DNA of 34,031 nt from a virus, in the IMG/VR virus record IMGVR_UViG_3300032236_000448, positions 1 to 34,031 of that record; one strand, given 5' to 3'. A program made the translations under genes and the position numbers. Under the pieces are notes generated by a model. The model was not told the origin of the DNA. It made no database searches and saw only the letters and a list, made by a program, of their open reading frames with translations. Below, one piece after another: positions 14,790 to 31,826 of the stretch. Numbering within the stretch: the first letter of the stretch is position 1; each line of letters starts with the position of its first letter.

Positions 14790-16097
14790 TCAGACAGGAA
14801 GTGGTTGGCGACATGACTCGCAGAACACAGCGGTCTTCTTGTTGGGGTAACCACAGGGGCACATTTTGGCTATCGCTTGGAGATAGGTGAGGGCACCTGA
14901 GTGTTGGATGAGTTCGGTGAAAGCCCATACGAGGGCGTCTAGACGGTCGGGTGATTTCGGGTCGTCTGGTGTCCATGTGGTCAGCTGTGATTCGAGTTGT
15001 GGGAACACACCAACGTGGTGGATGCGTCCCTGTTCGTAGAGGGCGGAGATGGGTTCGGCACGGGTCTGTTTCCCTTTGGAGGCTCGCACCTCCACGATGG
15101 GGAGCGAGGGTCTAACGGTGCGTAGGACTTGGGCGACCATTTGCCCACCTTGGTTGATTTCGACGACGACAGCGTCAGCCATATGGGTGTCATACGTCTC
15201 CACAACCCTCCTAGCCCAAGCATCGGGTGTGCCTCTCGTCGTGTAGTCCGCGATCACATAGCCGTGTTGGTGCGTGTCGCGGCCTGCGACGATGATGCCG
15301 GTCTCGTCACCGGTGTCTGTGACGGCTGGGTCAACAGCGACCACAGTTCTAACGAGTTGTGGTACCTCGGAGATTCGGGTCGCTTCAATCTTGTCCAACG
15401 ACCACAACGCACCCTCAACATCCTCCAAGAGTTCGCCCATGATTTCCTGCTTACCCAAACGTGTCCCCTCATATCGGGACATGAGTTCGGCAAGGAACGT
15501 GGGGGCAAGGTTGTCGGCGTTGTCGTAAGTGGATCCGCGTGTCACCATCACAGAACCGTCCTTACGGTTCAGCAAAGTACGCACCAAAGGGACAGGTTTC
15601 GGTGTTGAGGTCGCTACGGCTTGTGGATGGTCACCGAGGCGTAACCCCATGACCATCATGTCCCATGCTTCGGTGCCGTACTCGAACGCTGCGATCTCAT
15701 CCAGCCAGACGTAGTGGTGCTGTGGGCCTCTGAGACGGTCTGGTTCTTCACCGCTGAATAGTTTGATACGGGACTCGTTCACCAGCGTTATCTCACCGAG
15801 GGAACGGTTCCATTTCTTCAACTGCCCATACCGGTGGAGAACGTTGACAATGCCTGACTCCCCTTCCACACAAGTATCACGAGCATCTGCGAACGTTGGT
15901 GCGATAATCGCTCCGCGCGCACCCGGATTCCTCACCAACTGCCACGCTAACCATTCGGCACCGACACGGGTTTTCCCGAAACCACGCCCAGCCAACACAA
16001 GCCAAGTAATCCAATCCCCCTCGGGAGGTAACTGGGAAGGTCGGGCTTGTTGATGTTCCCAACGTACCCGGGCAGCGGCGATACGGGTCGCGGACAT
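14790..16097 (-). CDS. Terminase large subunit
   Basis: A 435-aa packaging motor protein of the Terminase_6 type. The Walker A is AGRGFGKT (36-43), the Walker B VWLDE (130-134), and a coupling motif STPKP follows near 164. The nuclease domain has AVDPA (D256), DTGDETG (D264), a VVEINQGG motif (E313) and DRLDALVWA (D387). The C terminus bears an extra zinc ribbon, Cys413, Cys415, Cys426 and Cys429, after the normal end of the nuclease domain. The ATG overlaps the upstream stop as TAATG. It would translocate and cut DNA together with the small subunit encoded about 1.1 kb upstream, separated by a group of tiny genes. Confidence 0.95.
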   Translation of the reverse strand: MSATRIAAARVRWEHQQARPSQLPPEGDWITWLVLAGRGFGKTRVGAEWLAWQLVRNPGARGAIIAPTFADARDTCVEGESGIVNVLHRYGQLKKWNRSLGEITLVNESRIKLFSGEEPDRLRGPQHHYVWLDEIAAFEYGTEAWDMMVMGLRLGDHPQAVATSTPKPVPLVRTLLNRKDGSVMVTRGSTYDNADNLAPTFLAELMSRYEGTRLGKQEIMGELLEDVEGALWSLDKIEATRISEVPQLVRTVVAVDPAVTDTGDETGIIVAGRDTHQHGYVIADYTTRGTPDAWARRVVETYDTHMADAVVVEINQGGQMVAQVLRTVRPSLPIVEVRASKGKQTRAEPISALYEQGRIHHVGVFPQLESQLTTWTPDDPKSPDRLDALVWAFTELIQHSGALTYLQAIAKMCPCGYPNKKTAVFCESCRQPLPV

Positions 16098-17235: not shown

Positions 17236-17673
17236 TTACTTCGGGGTTGAGTCATTCTCCGCCAACAAAGCCACCAAACGCTGCATCTCCGCATCAATAG
17301 AGTTCGTGTCCGTGACATCCACCTTCACTTCAGACCTCACCGGGGCGTCAAGACCGAGATACTTTGCGCGGCGATCCAGAATCTTCAGGGCGGTATGAAT
17401 CGCTTGTGTGTCGCCTTGCATGACTTTCCCCCAGATCGCGGTTTGCATCTTGTCGAGCCTGTCTAGTTCCAGCTCACGAATCTCCTCTGTCCCTGCCTCC
17501 ACCAAGGTTCGTTTCATGGCTCGCTGATACGCACGATAAGCGGATGTGTGATCTGTGTAGCCGACCGTGCGAGAGATGTCGTCCCATGTGGCACCTGCAC
17601 GGCGTAGTTCTACGACGCGGCGTTCTTTGTCAATGAGTTCGGGTGTGGGTGATTTCGTCATGGTGTGATTCAC
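17236..17673 (-). CDS. Terminase small subunit
   Basis: A 145-aa protein with an N-terminal helix-turn-helix (about residues 15-50: ELRRAGATWDDISRTVGYTD followed by SAYRAYQRAMKR), then a long helical region (ELELDRLDKMQTAIWGKVMQGD) and ALKILDRRAKYLGLDAP, a hallmark of small terminase subunits in actinophages. It recognises the packaging site and regulates the large subunit. The start may be the GTG at 17673 or the ATG at 17661; neither has a clear ribosome site. Directly downstream of the ParB-like gene. Confidence 0.85.
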   Translation of the reverse strand: MNHTMTKSPTPELIDKERRVVELRRAGATWDDISRTVGYTDHTSAYRAYQRAMKRTLVEAGTEEIRELELDRLDKMQTAIWGKVMQGDTQAIHTALKILDRRAKYLGLDAPVRSEVKVDVTDTNSIDAEMQRLVALLAENDSTPK

Positions 17674-17674
17674 A

Positions 17675-18190
17675 TTAGATGGGTTTGTGGCCTTGTGGGG
17701 TTTGTGTCCATTCGAATCCGCAGTCTGGGCATCGGAAAACCTTTTCTTGGGGGTTGTCGGGTTCTGGGATTTCGGGTTCGAGTTTGATGGGGTCTAGTTC
17801 GAGGCTGAGGAGAAGGTTGTCTAGGTCTTCGGGTGTGTATCCGGTGCCGGCGAGTTCTTGTTCTGTTTTCATTAGGTTGATGAGGATGGTGGCGAGGTCG
17901 GGTTCGTTGTAGGTGGCTTCGTCGTTGGCGCGGTTGTCGACTAGGAGGATGCGTAGGGCTTCTTCATTGTCGCAGTCGATCCATGTGACTTCGATGGTGT
18001 CCCATTTGAGTGCTTTGGCGGCTTTCCATGTGTGGTTGCCGGCGAGGATGTGGCGTGTGGAGGTTTGAGCGACGATGGGGCGGTACTGTCCGTGCGCTTT
18101 CAAGGATTCGGCGATGAGGCCGATGTCGCCTTGTCTCACGTTTTCGGGGTGTGGGGTGAGGGTGCCGAGTTTGACGGTTTCGGTTTTCAT
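17675..18190 (-). CDS. ParB-like nuclease-domain protein with C-terminal zinc motif
   Basis: A 171-aa protein with an N-terminal ParB/Srx-fold domain: LTPHPENVRQGD (11-22), GQYRPIVAQ, HILAGNHTWKAAKAL with the GNHT box at 51-54, then DNRANDEATYNEPDL. A Glu/Pro-rich linker precedes a CPDC pair (Cys154, Cys157) near the end. Stand-alone proteins of this type are common next to phage terminase genes; the family binds CTP or DNA in ParB, but no ParA partner is present here, so plasmid-like partition is unlikely. A packaging-site or regulatory role is possible. No ribosome site is visible before the ATG; the 130 nt upstream is structured. Confidence 0.8.
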   Translation of the reverse strand: MKTETVKLGTLTPHPENVRQGDIGLIAESLKAHGQYRPIVAQTSTRHILAGNHTWKAAKALKWDTIEVTWIDCDNEEALRILLVDNRANDEATYNEPDLATILINLMKTEQELAGTGYTPEDLDNLLLSLELDPIKLEPEIPEPDNPQEKVFRCPDCGFEWTQTPQGHKPI

Positions 18191-18279: not shown

Positions 18280-18324
18280 GTCCCTCGACGGTTTTCCCCC
18301 CTTGCCGTCGGGGGACTTTTTATT
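18280..18324 (+). terminator. Plus-strand intrinsic terminator
   Basis: GTCCCTCGACGG (18280-18291) pairs with CCGTCGGGGGAC (18305-18316), 12 pairs with one U-G wobble, a 13-nt loop, and is followed directly by TTTTTATT (18317-18324). The wobble and the T-tract both fit plus-strand RNA. On the minus strand the pair is C-A and no T-run follows. All protein genes are on the minus strand, so the terminator must serve an antisense or noncoding transcript, or block stray plus-strand transcription. It overlaps the 3' end of the minus-strand gene at 18320. Confidence 0.7.
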
Positions 18325-18511
18325 CTCCGATGCTGTACGCACCGTTTGGTTTCACGGTGACAAGGTTCGCGTCGAAATGTTTGATTTGCCCGGTGGTGAG
18401 AACCACAACCCAGCAGGTGTTGACCCATGCTCCGTAGTCGATGACGATGATGGCGAGTCCGTCTCCCAAAGGTGTGTTGACCTCGATGGGTTGACGGAGT
18501 TCGTGAATCAT
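18320..18511 (-). CDS. Small beta-rich (SH3-like) protein
   Basis: A 63-aa protein starting at an ATG that overlaps the Rpf-like stop as ATGA. The sequence is beta-rich (LAIIVIDYGAWVNTCWVVVL, then TGQIKHFDANLVTVKPNG) and resembles small SH3-like proteins common in aquatic phages. A start 24 codons upstream would lie within the Rpf gene and is not needed. It is the last gene before the structured intergenic region. The function is unknown. Confidence 0.75.
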   Translation of the reverse strand: MIHELRQPIEVNTPLGDGLAIIVIDYGAWVNTCWVVVLTTGQIKHFDANLVTVKPNGAYSIGE

Positions 18512-18948
18512 GGTTTCTTTCGTCGATGGTTTCGTAACCAGTTCTGTGGGTGCAGCGACTGGTGAGCGCGGATGCAGCCCCACCCGAAGAACCCAGCGGC
18601 TGGACGGAAGAACGGTTTGTTGTTCAGCTTGTCGTCCAAGGTGAGGTAGACGTGTTTGGTTTGGTATCCGGCGACGCTAATGCGGTAGGCGACTTCGAGT
18701 TGTTCTTCTTTGGTGGCACCTTTAGGGGTGCGTGAAAACTCGCGTCCGCCGTAGTTCTCCCACGACGTTTGTGCGATACCGAGTCCGCCGGCGTATGCGC
18801 CACCATCGATCCAGTTCCCATGCGTCTCGCAGTAGGCGACATCGTCCCAGTAGGCGACCGGCATACGGTGGGGGAGGCCGTTTGCGCTCACCTTCCCACT
18901 TTGGGCGAGTAGTAAACCCATCGTGAGAAGCAGCGCGCGAACCTTCAG
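18508..18948 (-). CDS. Secreted Rpf-like (resuscitation-promoting factor) muralytic protein, CTG start
   Basis: A 146-aa protein with a signal peptide (KVRALLLTMGLLLAQSGKVSA, cleavage near residue 22) and an Rpf-type transglycosylase-like domain at about residues 33-95. It shows WDDVAYCETHGNW with catalytic-type Glu41, then AGGLGIAQTSWENYGG and KEEQLEVAYRI. Rpf enzymes cut peptidoglycan glycan strands and wake dormant actinobacteria. The start is a CTG at 18948: AGGAGG lies 7 nt upstream and CTGA overlaps the upstream stop just like the ATGA/GTGA junctions elsewhere. The only upstream alternative is a GTG at 18987 without a ribosome site. It is far from the lysis genes and lacks a binding domain, so it is not the main endolysin. 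Confidence 0.82.
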   Translation of the reverse strand: MKVRALLLTMGLLLAQSGKVSANGLPHRMPVAYWDDVAYCETHGNWIDGGAYAGGLGIAQTSWENYGGREFSRTPKGATKEEQLEVAYRISVAGYQTKHVYLTLDDKLNNKPFFRPAAGFFGWGCIRAHQSLHPQNWLRNHRRKKP

Positions 18949-19181
18949 TCTTTTGCCTCCTGATCGGCGGATAAGGCATAGGCGCACGGTATGAGTAGTG
19001 CGCCCGGAGTGACTCCGAAGAGTTCCTCTAGGTGAACCAAGTTAGGCATGGTTGGGGTGGCTCGTCCACTTTCCCAGAGGTAGACGGCTGTTTGGCTTAC
19101 GTTGAGGGCGTTTGCGATTTTGCGTTGGGTGAGGCCGAGCCGTTGACGGTTCTCTTTGAAGAGGTTGGCGAAGGTTTCCAT
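18945..19181 (-). CDS. Cro/CI-type (XRE) helix-turn-helix regulator
   Basis: A 78-aa protein consisting almost wholly of an XRE helix-turn-helix: FKENRQRLGLTQRKIANALN, VSQTAVYLWESGRATP, NLVHLEELFGVTPGALL. It lacks the C-terminal peptidase or oligomerisation domain of CI repressors, so it is Cro-like in size. It is in the P2 operon and could bind the shared inverted repeat at P1 and P2. That link is an inference. The ATG has only a weak purine run upstream. Its stop overlaps the CTG start of the Rpf-like gene. Confidence 0.88.
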   Translation of the reverse strand: METFANLFKENRQRLGLTQRKIANALNVSQTAVYLWESGRATPTMPNLVHLEELFGVTPGALLIPCAYALSADQEAKD

Positions 19182-26592: not shown

Positions 26593-27159
26593 TTATCCAA
26601 GTACCAGTTGAGACGCTGTATGGAACGGTGCAGCAGTCCCCGAATCAAACCTCGCAGCAACCTCCAACGCTGTGGTCACCGACTTCTTCGCAATATCAAC
26701 CCCGGACACATCCAGCATGGCGAGCGCACCCAACGCAAAGTCGCCGCCGCTCCCAATTGCGTACAACCCTGAAGCATCCCTGACCCATGCCCAGTCACCA
26801 CCAATCTCGTACACCGTGGCATTGACCAGCACCATCACCACGCTGTCCGTGTCAGTCTCATTTTTGGTGGTGATGCCTTCCCGGTCAAACACATCACGCA
26901 ACGCCGGGATGAACTTGGCGGTGATGAACTTGTCCAGCCGCAGGCCGCGCACCGTGGGAGGCGCAGGAAGATTGGACGCATAGGAAAGGACATTGATAAT
27001 TCGGACATCACCGGCAGCACCCAACAAATACCCGTTGTGTTTCACAATCTTCGAGGATCCGTGCCCAGCCGAGTAGACCCGTCCACCTTCGACAGCCATA
27101 CGGGAATCCCAACCAACAACAGCCCAACCATTCCCCTGAACAGCAGCGATAGTGGTCAT
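26593..27159 (-). CDS. HslV/proteasome-like Ntn-hydrolase peptidase
   Basis: A 188-aa protein with the N-terminal-nucleophile hydrolase fold. After Met removal Thr2 would be the catalytic N-terminal threonine (MTTIAAVQ, as in HslV). GWDSR gives Asp18, equal to proteasome Asp17, and Lys37 in SSKIVKHNG matches the catalytic Lys33. LLGAAGD and YAIGSGGDFALGAL match HslV segments. All core catalytic residues are kept, so an active threonine peptidase is likely. No HslU/ClpX-type unfoldase is in the genome; it may use a host ATPase or act alone. It overlaps the upstream 72-aa gene by 4 nt. Confidence 0.85.
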   Translation of the reverse strand: MTTIAAVQGNGWAVVGWDSRMAVEGGRVYSAGHGSSKIVKHNGYLLGAAGDVRIINVLSYASNLPAPPTVRGLRLDKFITAKFIPALRDVFDREGITTKNETDTDSVVMVLVNATVYEIGGDWAWVRDASGLYAIGSGGDFALGALAMLDVSGVDIAKKSVTTALEVAARFDSGTAAPFHTASQLVLG

Positions 27160-28890: not shown

Positions 28891-29048
28891 TCGTCGTCTC
28901 CAAAGATTGAGAGCAGCATGTGGAGGACGCCGGCAACAAGGGTCGATATGAGAACGATGCGTTGAATGGTGCCTGACAGGGTGAGGATGGTGACCTCGAA
29001 ACCCAGCCATGTGAGGATGGCGTCACGCAGGAAAGCCTTTAGTTTCAT
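28887..29048 (-). CDS. Small membrane protein (holin-like)
   Basis: A 53-aa protein with a basic N terminus (KLKAFLRD), a first hydrophobic stretch (AILTWLGFEVTILTLSG), a second clear membrane span (IVLISTLVAGVLHMLLSIF) and an acidic end (GDDE). It overlaps its neighbours as ATGA and GTGA. Size and layout resemble two-span holins. AAGGAGAAAGCC precedes the ATG at a suitable distance. Too short to place in a family. Confidence 0.7.
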   Translation of the reverse strand: MKLKAFLRDAILTWLGFEVTILTLSGTIQRIVLISTLVAGVLHMLLSIFGDDE

Positions 29049-30322
29049 GGCTTTCTCCTTCTCACAGTCAGACCAGCAATTACAACAGTTCCGATGATGA
29101 TAATTCGTCTTGTCTTCACAGGCACCCGAGAGCCAAGAGGCACATAGTTCTCAAACTTGCCACCAAAGACCGGGACTTTCTTCTCAAACGCTTTACGCAC
29201 TTTCGCTGGGGCGTGTTGAACGGCTGCGACCAGTTGAGCTGCTTGATCTGGGGTGAGGGTGTTTTCGTCGATGGACGCGAACACAACTGAGGCTTGTTCG
29301 GGTGTGAGGTTGGCGACGGCTGTCGGGTTGGTGGCGAGAGCGACGGCCTGTTCTGGGGGGATACTCGTAGGAGACGCTGGGAGCGTTGTGGAGGTGGTGG
29401 GGGTTGTCGTTATAGGGGGAAGCGTGGAAGTCGTCTCTACGGGCTTCTGGACGCTTGTGGTGGGCATTATGGTGGTGGTGCCCACCTGTCCGCCTCGGTT
29501 GGCAGGCTCGCTCGTCGTAGAAGATGGGACTACGACGGGCTGTGTAGTTTGAGGCGATGTTGAAGAAGTGGATGTGCTGGACTCTGGCGGTGTTATCTCT
29601 ACTTGTGTTGTGGGGGTGGTGGATGGTTCTGGCGGCTGTGTTGACGATGTGCTGGATGATGGGACGACCGTATCCACCAAAGAATTAGCAGGACTTGTCA
29701 TAATTGGGGTACTCGAAGGAGGAACCGATGAAAAAGTTGAAGGAAGTTCTGTTGTTGTCGTTGTGGTTGTCGACGACGTGGTTGTTGTTGTGGGCACTAC
29801 TGCACTAAACGCGGACTCAGGAACAACCGACCAATCCTGATTATCGCCATCGAACTGCCAGAACAACATAAAACACGTTTGACCACCGTTCTCGTAGAAC
29901 CATGCATCCAACGGGAGCGGTGTGTCGGTCGGCAACGTCACCCGATCCGAATAATCAACCGAACAAGCCTTATCTGTCCAAGACCCGAAGTTGGTGGAGT
30001 TGATTGTGACATCACTTCCGTCATCTGACGCGATAGCGAACCTCACCGACTGAACTCCGTCAGGGATGGTGATGAACCCTCGGTAGTGAAGCATGAAATT
30101 GTCCCAGCCACAGTCCTGAAACCGTTCCGCATCCCATGACTGGTTGATATTGGGGTAGTTCCCGTCCCCACATTGTGGGTACAAACTGTCAGATTGTTCA
30201 GGCGGAACCTGATCGATGCTGTACCCAACAACGGACAGCCCAGACACCGTCGCACCGCTGGCCTTTGACAAGCCCACCATCAAACCCAAAGCCAACACAA
30301 CAAGTGCCAGCCAACGTTTCAC
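29045..30322 (-). CDS. Secreted PA14-like, Thr-rich, membrane-anchored surface protein
   Basis: A 425-aa protein from a GTG at 30322. It has a signal peptide (KRWLALVVLALGLMVGLSKA, cleavage near residue 23). Residues 25-170 look like a PA14-type beta domain (MLHYRGFITIPDGVQSVRFA, ASDDGSDVTIN, NGGQTCFMLFWQFDGDN). Residues ~175-320 are a Thr/Ser/Pro mucin-like stalk. Residues ~320-385 are helical with LTPEQA repeats. A C-terminal membrane span (RIIIIGTVVIAGLTV) and RRRKP anchor follow. It would be displayed on the infected cell or act in wall/lysis. It lies inside the lysis cassette between small membrane proteins and is not a normal tail protein. Confidence 0.8.
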   Translation of the reverse strand: MKRWLALVVLALGLMVGLSKASGATVSGLSVVGYSIDQVPPEQSDSLYPQCGDGNYPNINQSWDAERFQDCGWDNFMLHYRGFITIPDGVQSVRFAIASDDGSDVTINSTNFGSWTDKACSVDYSDRVTLPTDTPLPLDAWFYENGGQTCFMLFWQFDGDNQDWSVVPESAFSAVVPTTTTTSSTTTTTTTELPSTFSSVPPSSTPIMTSPANSLVDTVVPSSSTSSTQPPEPSTTPTTQVEITPPESSTSTSSTSPQTTQPVVVPSSTTSEPANRGGQVGTTTIMPTTSVQKPVETTSTLPPITTTPTTSTTLPASPTSIPPEQAVALATNPTAVANLTPEQASVVFASIDENTLTPDQAAQLVAAVQHAPAKVRKAFEKKVPVFGGKFENYVPLGSRVPVKTRRIIIIGTVVIAGLTVRRRKP

Positions 30323-30396
30323 TCGTCAATAAGAAAACGCAACGCGACAGCCATACCGACAACCACGCCGATAGCCGTGCAAAGAAACAGGCTCAT
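30319..30396 (-). CDS. 25-aa single-span membrane peptide in the lysis cassette
   Basis: A micro-gene with ATG at 30396 overlapping the endolysin stop as ATGA, and with its TGA overlapping the GTG of the next gene as GTGA. The peptide is one hydrophobic span (LFLCTAIGVVVGMAVALRFL) ending IDE. The double coupling and composition suggest it is really translated. It could be a holin/antiholin modulator or a spacer for coupling. Confidence 0.55.
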   Translation of the reverse strand: MSLFLCTAIGVVVGMAVALRFLIDE

Positions 30397-30905
30397 GGCT
30401 TCGGAACGCTGCGCCAAATCGCTTCGTACTCGTCCGCAGACTTCGCAGCCATAGCCGGCGAAATCTCCACATGAATCCACTTCGTGCCCAGACCCGGTGT
30501 GCCACCGTTATCGGTAGCAGTCCAATCCTTCCAACCACGACCAACACGCCAACCACGACCCCATTGTGAGGTTCCCGGCTTTGTCCGTCCACCGTAATCG
30601 TGAACCTCTTCGATACCGAGTTGGTCGGCGTACTGCACGAACCAGTTCATTGCTTGCACAGCGGCCTTGTCGTCAGCTCCGAACCCGATGTCGGCAGCGC
30701 GACCCGTCGCATGAACCGACATGTACGGCTTGCATTTCGGGTCGTGGACATCCAACTTTTGAATATCTGCCGGCGCGGAACGCATCACACGCACCACCAA
30801 AGAACCCATGTTCGTGAACTTCCAACGACGACCACACAAGTCAATCAAACGCTCCGTTGCTGGAATCTTGGCGTCCGCGATCTTGTCGAACCCTGTGTAA
30901 CCCAT
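30393..30905 (-). CDS. Endolysin, M15-type L,D/D,D-peptidase
   Basis: A 170-aa protein with the zinc-peptidase M15 signature H65-x-x-G-R-A-A-D72 (SVHATGRAADIGF) and the third ligand His145 in KWIHVEIS; Glu147 nearby may assist. It cuts peptide bonds of host peptidoglycan at lysis. No signal peptide and no separate wall-binding domain are seen, so release needs the neighbouring holin-like protein. The ATG overlaps the holin-like stop by one base (TAATG). Confidence 0.9.
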   Translation of the reverse strand: MGYTGFDKIADAKIPATERLIDLCGRRWKFTNMGSLVVRVMRSAPADIQKLDVHDPKCKPYMSVHATGRAADIGFGADDKAAVQAMNWFVQYADQLGIEEVHDYGGRTKPGTSQWGRGWRVGRGWKDWTATDNGGTPGLGTKWIHVEISPAMAAKSADEYEAIWRSVPKP

Positions 30906-31147
30906 TACTTCTTTTCCTCTGGGGTGACACCAGTGAACGCCTCGTTGATTTCGGCAGCGGTCAGGTTGCCGTCAACCGAGGCGCGAGCGAGACGTTCAAG
31001 GACGGTGGCGACAGCCGACACACCAGCGAGAGCGGCAGACTTAGCAACCGGGATACCACCGATAAGGGCTGATCCACCAACGATTGCCATCGCGTTGACG
31101 ATGAAAGTGGAAATGATTCGCTGAACGATGCTGATTGCGGTTTTCAT
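30905..31147 (-). CDS. Holin-like protein
   Basis: An 80-aa protein starting at the ATG at 31147 (GGAGAAACCC upstream). Residues 8-52 are hydrophobic/amphipathic (IISTFIVNAMAIVGGSALIG, VAKSAALAGVSAVATVL), likely one or two spans, and the tail is polar and acidic (TAAEINEAFTGVTPEEKK). It directly precedes the endolysin with a TAATG overlap and has r1t-like holin size and layout. The holin call is by context and topology. Confidence 0.75.
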   Translation of the reverse strand: MKTAISIVQRIISTFIVNAMAIVGGSALIGGIPVAKSAALAGVSAVATVLERLARASVDGNLTAAEINEAFTGVTPEEKK

Positions 31148-31187
31148 GGGTTTCTCCATCTGTGCAGACCCATCCGCGACAGCGATA

Positions 31188-31826
31188 CTAGTGCGGTGCG
31201 TACCCAGACGCGAGAAGATACCCAGTCCCTCCCGTACCAACGGTAGAACCCGAAGTCGCAGATCCAGAACCTCCACCAGCAACCGATTGGGCTGAAGCGA
31301 TAGCGGAACCACCCGATGAGGTGGAGAAGTAGATACCTGCCGAAATAAAATCGGCATAGGTTGCTATTTGTCGCCATGCGCCGGCTGCGCCAGCCGTCCA
31401 CGCCGCAAACGTTCCTGAGCCACCTGTGGTGGTGACGTTCACGGTGATGGAACTGTTCGTTGTGATGGAGCTGATGAACCCTGCCATGTAGTTCGTAGTG
31501 GAACCTGTCTGGGTGAAACGAATCGGGTCACCTGTTTGGAAGGAGCCTGTGTTCGTCATAGCGAAAGTTTTGGAGCCTGTACCAATCGTGTTTGACGTGA
31601 CCGAGGTGAGGCCTTGATAGCCGAGACCAGCCAACACGAGGAAGACGTACAGGTACCCGGTGGATGCGTCAATCACACAATCCCCCGACTGGGGATAGGC
31701 AGGGAACTTTGTGTAGTCAGGGACGACAGGGATAGTGAAACGACGCACCGCCTCTAATGCTCGAATCCTGCGGTCAAGGTCAGCGAACATCGCACCCAAC
31801 TGTGGATTCTGATTCAACACACCCAT
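31188..31826 (-). CDS. Tail protein (baseplate/fibre-associated)
   Basis: A 212-aa protein starting at ATG 31826 with AAGGAG upstream. The N-terminal helix (LGAMFADLDRRIRALEAVRR) is typical of trimerising segments at the start of phage baseplate or fibre proteins. The rest is beta-rich and Gly/Ser/Thr-rich (TGSKTFAMTNTGSFQTGDPI, SSITTNSSITVNVTTTGGSG). It ends with Gly/Ser repeats. It lies after the Gp37-like minor tail gene and before the lysis genes. A virion role is inferred. Confidence 0.7.
   Translation of the reverse strand: MGVLNQNPQLGAMFADLDRRIRALEAVRRFTIPVVPDYTKFPAYPQSGDCVIDASTGYLYVFLVLAGLGYQGLTSVTSNTIGTGSKTFAMTNTGSFQTGDPIRFTQTGSTTNYMAGFISSITTNSSITVNVTTTGGSGTFAAWTAGAAGAWRQIATYADFISAGIYFSTSSGGSAIASAQSVAGGGSGSATSGSTVGTGGTGYLLASGYAPH

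Follow-up and report, generated by a model that had tools for sequence, protein, structure and literature searches.

Rpf enzymes influence whether dormant actinobacteria begin growth. What use would a phage have for a free, exported enzyme of this kind, encoded apart from its lysis genes? The question arises from the window, i.e., the whole stretch of DNA analyzed here (34,031 nucleotides, positions 1 to 34,031 of IMG/VR record IMGVR_UViG_3300032236_000448), which carries on its minus strand an rpf ORF at 18508–18948, encoding 146 amino acids if CTG-initiated. The initial annotation had taken the product for a stand-alone, secreted Rpf-like enzyme that could remodel host walls early, wake dormant neighboring cells or block superinfection. 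WhiB genes point to actinobacterial hosts (PMC6802176). No tRNA genes were found in the window, no close DNA relatives of it were found among isolated phages, and a terminase-based search returned distant relatives only, which did not bear on the Rpf.

On the minus strand, gene order runs from tail, holin, M15-like peptidase, secreted PA14-like protein, exonuclease, RecE and Erf via SSB, WhiB, replication initiator, small genes, HTH and Rpf to the ParB-like gene, the phrog_645 gene, TerL, portal, capsid and tail. The surroundings of rpf comprise the following features:

18945–19181, minus strand: XRE-family HTH regulator, ending in a CTGA overlap with the start of rpf; syntenic in L001, L002, L116 and L125
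18956–18961, minus strand: Shine-Dalgarno AGGAGG, 7 nt before the rpf CTG
18508–18948, minus strand: rpf-like gene, stand-alone, secreted type; 146 aa, CTG start, TGA stop
18320–18511, minus strand: small gene, no function given; overlaps the rpf stop (ATGA)
17675–18190, minus strand: ParB-like gene, downstream of rpf; syntenic in relatives
17236–17673, minus strand: phrog_645 gene, just upstream of TerL; putative small terminase, by position only
14790–16097, minus strand: large terminase, with which the virion module begins

The relatives L001, L002, L116 and L125, whose Rpfs share about 44–57% identity with the window Rpf, retain the HTH-Rpf-ParB order. Since 4-nt overlaps join rpf to its neighbors on either side (its CTG with the TGA stop of the HTH gene, its stop with the ATG of the small gene), it is chained between the regulator and the small gene. 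Both this coupling and the surrounding genes bear out the view that a stand-alone Rpf is encoded in the regulatory/replication part of the genome. A promoter/terminator scan of the window found no convincing promoter. The early module also contains an HslV-family peptidase homologue (phrog_1040; 26593–27159, minus strand), unexplained in so small a phage.

The coordinates initially given to rpf imply a CTG start, and gene calling limited to ATG, GTG and TTG yields an ORF of 159 aa (18508–18987) with a GTG start. Judged by its sequence context, the CTG at 18948 is probably the likelier start, those coordinates being favored by the AGGAGG, the CTGA overlap and conservation in relatives: L001/L002, L116 and L125 likewise have the CTGA overlap and, at about equal position, a GGAG; the combination of Shine-Dalgarno, CTG and 4-nt HTH overlap is conserved across four divergent phage lineages. 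In L001, L002 and L125, no in-frame ATG, GTG or TTG follows the upstream stop before the hydrophobic stretch is reached; a start after the CTG would therefore cut into the signal peptide. The GTG at 18987 was rejected, as no Shine-Dalgarno sequence was found before it and no usable counterpart exists in relatives (L001/L002 have none, and that of L125 is followed by a stop). Initiation at CTG would presumably keep rpf expression low. Callers accepting ATG, GTG and TTG only will mis-start or miss genes with such a conserved CTG start.

The 146-aa protein consists, in this order, of a signal peptide, one Rpf domain, an insertion characteristic of a phage clade, a GWGC segment and a basic tail:

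18883–18948, minus strand: signal peptide MKVRALLLTMGLLLAQSGKVSA, from hydropathy and shuffles; cleavage probably after A22
18676–18855, minus strand: Rpf core domain PF06737, residues 45–104 of the 159-aa ORF
18826–18828, minus strand: catalytic-type glutamate, Glu54 of the ORF = Glu41 of the 146-aa protein = RpfB Glu292
18595–18663, minus strand: insertion typical of the phage clade (42 of 44 members), YQTKHVYLTLDDKLNNKPFFRPA region, preceding the GWGC segment
18565–18594, minus strand: GFFGWGC segment, with Cys138 of the ORF as second Rpf cysteine
18511–18543, minus strand: basic C-terminal tail NWLRNHRRKKP, from sequence; similar basic tails in L001–L006

The signal peptide, likewise part of the first description, was judged from hydropathy and a shuffle test rather than by a dedicated signal-peptide predictor: the N-terminus is the second most hydrophobic among 33 window proteins, and 63 of 5000 shuffles reach its value. 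The ORF is the sole PF06737 match in the window (E = 4e-14, 53.3 bits, cut-off 27); it also matches phrog_29757 ‘transglycosylase’ and, by sequence, RpfB in the PDB (E = 5e-8). No further domain was found in the mature protein beside Rpf, in agreement with the earlier statement that it has no virion or binding domain. An AlphaFold2 model built from 21 aligned sequences (block pLDDT 75–95 for ORF residues 41–159) was matched to RpfB 3eo5 with a Z score of 11.1 and an rmsd of 1.5 Å over 77 residues, and the aligned ranges of this match place Glu54 on RpfB Glu292. The six top structural matches are RpfB, RpfC and RpfE entries, followed by a group of lysozymes at Z 5.8. According to the model, the window protein has a lysozyme-like Rpf fold, so the proposed check against Rpf crystal structures came out in favor of an Rpf. 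Taken together, sequence features make it very probable that the protein is an exported Rpf-type enzyme.

A single profile scan of IMG/VR retrieved 194 stretches encoding Rpf relatives, 80 of which were kept for analysis. The kept relatives are nearly all free ORFs of about 150–400 residues with a hydrophobic N-terminal segment. Whole-record searches of 21 viral records revealed one Rpf gene apiece; a 94.5-kb record gave two matches, one at each end, which are probably one gene in redundant ends. After removal of near-copies, the 44 members form one clade in a tree built on 110 columns (bootstrap 99, SH-aLRT 95), a monophyly that is partly a matter of sampling because the members were collected with the clade’s own profile. 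Glu54, Cys53, Trp47, Trp59 and Trp76 are invariant (44/44), which upholds the assignment of an Rpf domain with a catalytic-type glutamate. The second cysteine (C138) aligns in 42 members, the remaining two having a Cys a few residues on. The residue beside Trp76 is mostly Thr in cellular Rpfs, Ser in the window protein and Val or Ala in about half of the clade. Built around QTK ... DDKLNNKPFF, the insertion follows the last long helix and precedes the WGC part (42/44); residues to the Cys in that segment number 34–40 in 42 of the 44 members versus 11–23 in cellular Rpfs, and the insertion is absent from all 22 cellular Rpfs compared. With a median dN/dS of about 0.11 over 39 informative pairs, rpf is conserved under purifying selection; this and the invariant active site rule out a pseudogene or chance ORF. 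No fusion of Rpf to a virion protein was seen in the clade. Hence, on the points by which the initial annotation was prepared to be refuted, we found an Rpf fold, an invariant Glu and no clade homologue fused to a virion protein. In L019, L020, L021, L024 and L025, the Rpf domain is followed by a second lysozyme/SLT-like domain within one secreted protein (in L019 with a weak PF01464 match).

As for the origin of the gene, the cellular sequences nearest to the clade in the tree are Acidimicrobiia Rpfs, and 47 of 296 Acidimicrobiia genomes contain matches to the clade profile. A close copy in these genomes was considered and dismissed, the best matches inspected being without the phage insertion. 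The stand-alone rpf genes of Trina-type phages are placed mostly among Actinomycetes Rpfs; because they group there, apart from the clade, the tree suggests at least two captures of Rpf by phages.

The setting of the gene was scored for the window and for 43 further members located by tblastn, 44 in total. An early operon in related phages, as had been expected, holds for 28 of the 44, which lie within 2 kb of WhiB, HTH, DUF932, SSB, RecT, ParB or ThyX relatives; it does not hold for others, as four are found among connector/major-tail genes, while TerL, a head protease and an M15 endolysin each have a single member nearby; nine are left without label. From these varied positions, rpf appears as movable cargo that resides most often in the early/regulatory part, and early timing need not be true of every member. 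In L145, L174, L118 and L190, the neighbors of the stand-alone Rpf gene encode head-tail connector or major tail proteins. In 43 of 161 Rpf-bearing loci, redundancy included (L003–L016, L026 and kin), a WhiB gene is directly upstream of the Rpf gene, a pairing that resembles the HTH-Rpf pair of the window.

The lysis genes of the window are located elsewhere:

30905–31357, minus strand: holin-like ORF, weak phrog_443 match; true start probably internal
30393–30905, minus strand: M15-like zinc-peptidase endolysin candidate, SVHATGRAADIG ... KWIHVE

About 11.5 kb separate rpf from this cassette (30393–31357), as the initial annotation had noted in calling the gene far from holin and endolysin; a place beside the holin in a lysis cassette, as expected of an endolysin, is thus not what we see for rpf. 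The cassette is also apart from rpf in the syntenic relative G319 (L116, L217), and the holin-like ORF is 74% identical in L217. We therefore rejected rpf as the main endolysin of this phage, a separate conserved holin/M15-like cassette being present. The fold match of the M15-like candidate is modest (Foldseek best E 7e-3 to VldE, with LdcB and VanY lower). Its family (window, L214, L215, L138) shares SxHxxGxAxD and WxHxE motifs; the window peptidase is unrecognized by Pfam and PHROGs, and the L138 relative matches endolysin PHROGs. Adjoining the cassette is a gene for a secreted Ser/Thr/Pro-rich protein of 425 aa (29045–30322, minus strand), whose first 175 residues look PA14-like by eye; it has a C-terminal membrane segment. 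Its N-part is 68% identical in L217 and its C-part 44% in L216, and it has no Pfam or PHROG match and none among isolated phages.

How might such an enzyme act? We envisage that Rpf is co-translated with the HTH regulator from the conserved, probably weak CTG start and would be Sec-exported across the membrane of its actinobacterial host while infection is under way, needing neither virion nor holin. As a peptidoglycan glycosidase, an activity that the fold and active site would predict, it may then cut glycan strands of the wall, so that the wall of the infected host would be loosened or turned over in cis, like host Rpfs do. The cell might thereby stay growth-competent, with its wall prepared in advance for lysis, which the separate holin/M15-like endolysin would bring about later. 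We favor such an in-cis role before lysis because the enzyme requires no holin and its gene, coupled to a regulator, stands away from the lysis genes; at this stage we regard its chances as about even, and it is we who infer timing and physiological role. During infection by Rhodococcus phage WC1, four host rpf genes are up throughout infection (PMC10986025), and some mycobacteriophages infect less well when host Rpfs are lost (PMC12908700); both observations indicate that Rpf activity can matter to phages.

A lysis role is the reading that several facts would fit equally. Rpf may serve as an accessory lysin, exported via Sec to attack the wall at lysis as a glycosidase, together with the M15-like peptidase endolysin: the phage’s own lysin candidate has the looks of a peptidase and nothing more, and a glycosidase partner would help; the Rpf gene of L138 is about 0.8 kb from an M15 endolysin, the one such neighbor among the clade members; the stand-alone rpf of phage BRock lies between genes for a glycoside hydrolase and for an endolysin; an SLT-like domain has been added in several relatives; and PF06737 occurs in mycobacteriophage Lysin A (PMC3314691). 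Yet the window and its syntenic relatives couple rpf to a regulator, at a distance from the cassette given above, most clade members are encoded by regulators or replication genes, and the signal peptide would release Rpf without a holin, so that we consider an accessory lysin a serious alternative, though less likely than not. The isolated-phage PF06737 copies, residing mostly in tape measure proteins, as well as the four clade members among connector or tail genes, could instead be taken to indicate a virion-associated enzyme of entry, as for tape-measure Rpf motifs. This is hardly to be believed for the window protein, which has a signal peptide, is not fused to a tail protein, coexists with a separate 739-aa tape measure devoid of an Rpf domain and belongs to a tree branch different from that of the two tape-measure domains included.

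The remaining readings place the effect at the cell surface or beyond the infected cell. Released Rpf could wake or stimulate dormant neighboring actinobacteria and so provide new hosts, in line with the true Rpf domain, catalytic Glu and export signal, with a small stand-alone secreted form that resembles bacterial Rpfs, with the clade adjoining Acidimicrobiia Rpf genes in the tree and with the induction of host rpf genes by WC1, regarded by its authors as possibly anti-dormancy (PMC10986025). Muralytic activity by itself does not show resuscitation, though, and the basic tail may hold the enzyme on the producing cell; such a paracrine resuscitation factor seems improbable to us. Regulator-coupled exported cargo genes often act in exclusion, and an exported-type wall enzyme coupled to a regulator might change the surface of the infected cell so as to block superinfection or alter adsorption; given that the window Rpf has no membrane anchor, we rate this as very improbable.

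A wider interpretation would be that a widespread environmental actinophage clade made a bacterial resuscitation factor its own, as a signal-enzyme secreted in free form, which the window lineage produces at low dose via the conserved regulator-coupled CTG and which keeps infected cells from dormancy or wakes dormant neighbors. As a whole, this is speculative and rather unlikely. Viruses may use the bacterial ‘wake-up’ enzyme to their own ends, given that well over 100 other environmental virus sequences carry relatives of it. A captured free secreted Rpf makes phage manipulation of host dormancy via the cell wall testable, and many ‘transglycosylase’ or unnamed labels in environmental phage sequences can be replaced by a defined enzyme family with a recognizable insertion. 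Rhodococcus phages offer culturable models for stand-alone phage Rpfs, and BRock (L218) is a possible culturable system bearing on the lysis alternative.

Free-standing phage Rpfs are already recorded, as unnamed or ‘transglycosylase’ database entries: those of Rhodococcus phages Trina (gp44), NiceHouse (gp39), Weasels2, Grayson and Peregrin, that of Streptomyces phage BRock (gp43), and several ‘Transglycosylase-like’ entries of uncultured Caudovirales. The notion that phage Rpf motifs are mostly inside tape measure or minor tail proteins thus stands for the isolated-phage collection, where most PF06737 matches sit in tape measure proteins, but stand-alone copies are not a rarity either. The open-access literature searched yielded no paper on phage Rpfs of the free-standing type, and a Rhodococcus phage survey (2026, PMC13313380) makes no mention of Rpf. 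The BRock gp43 gene adjoins that of the glycoside hydrolase gp44, close to the endolysin gp40.

The Rhodococcus and BRock genes are likewise small, free-standing and unfused to tail proteins, but the Trina-type copies fall outside the window clade in the tree, lack the insertion and have other C-terminal parts. The BFVD entries A0A6J5MEM6, A0A6J5MWU6 and A0A6J5P8B2 (uncultured Caudovirales; 142–191 aa, matching fold, 24–40% identity) may belong to the window clade and are known here as database entries. Rpf motif 1 in the tape measure protein of mycobacteriophage Barnyard has long been known (PMC1796659); it is an Rpf-type domain too, but within the virion tail and acting at entry, whereas the window Rpf is a free protein of 146 aa rather than a domain inside a long tail protein. 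The Mt3 motif of TM4, whose peptidoglycan-cutting activity helps to infect stationary-phase cells (PMC1796659), is different from Rpf. In Cluster A mycobacteriophages, PF06737 is the catalytic domain of Lysin A (PMC3314691), i.e., the same catalytic domain family, but central in a multi-domain endolysin with N- and C-terminal parts. With bacterial Rpfs (RpfB, RpfC and RpfE of Mycobacterium tuberculosis and those of Acidimicrobiia), the window protein has in common the fold, catalytic Glu, Cys pair, invariant Trps and export signal; it differs from them in being phage-encoded, with an extra segment before the GWGC part, in having no LysM, G5 or other binding domain, and in that its gene starts with CTG and is coupled to an HTH gene of the phage.
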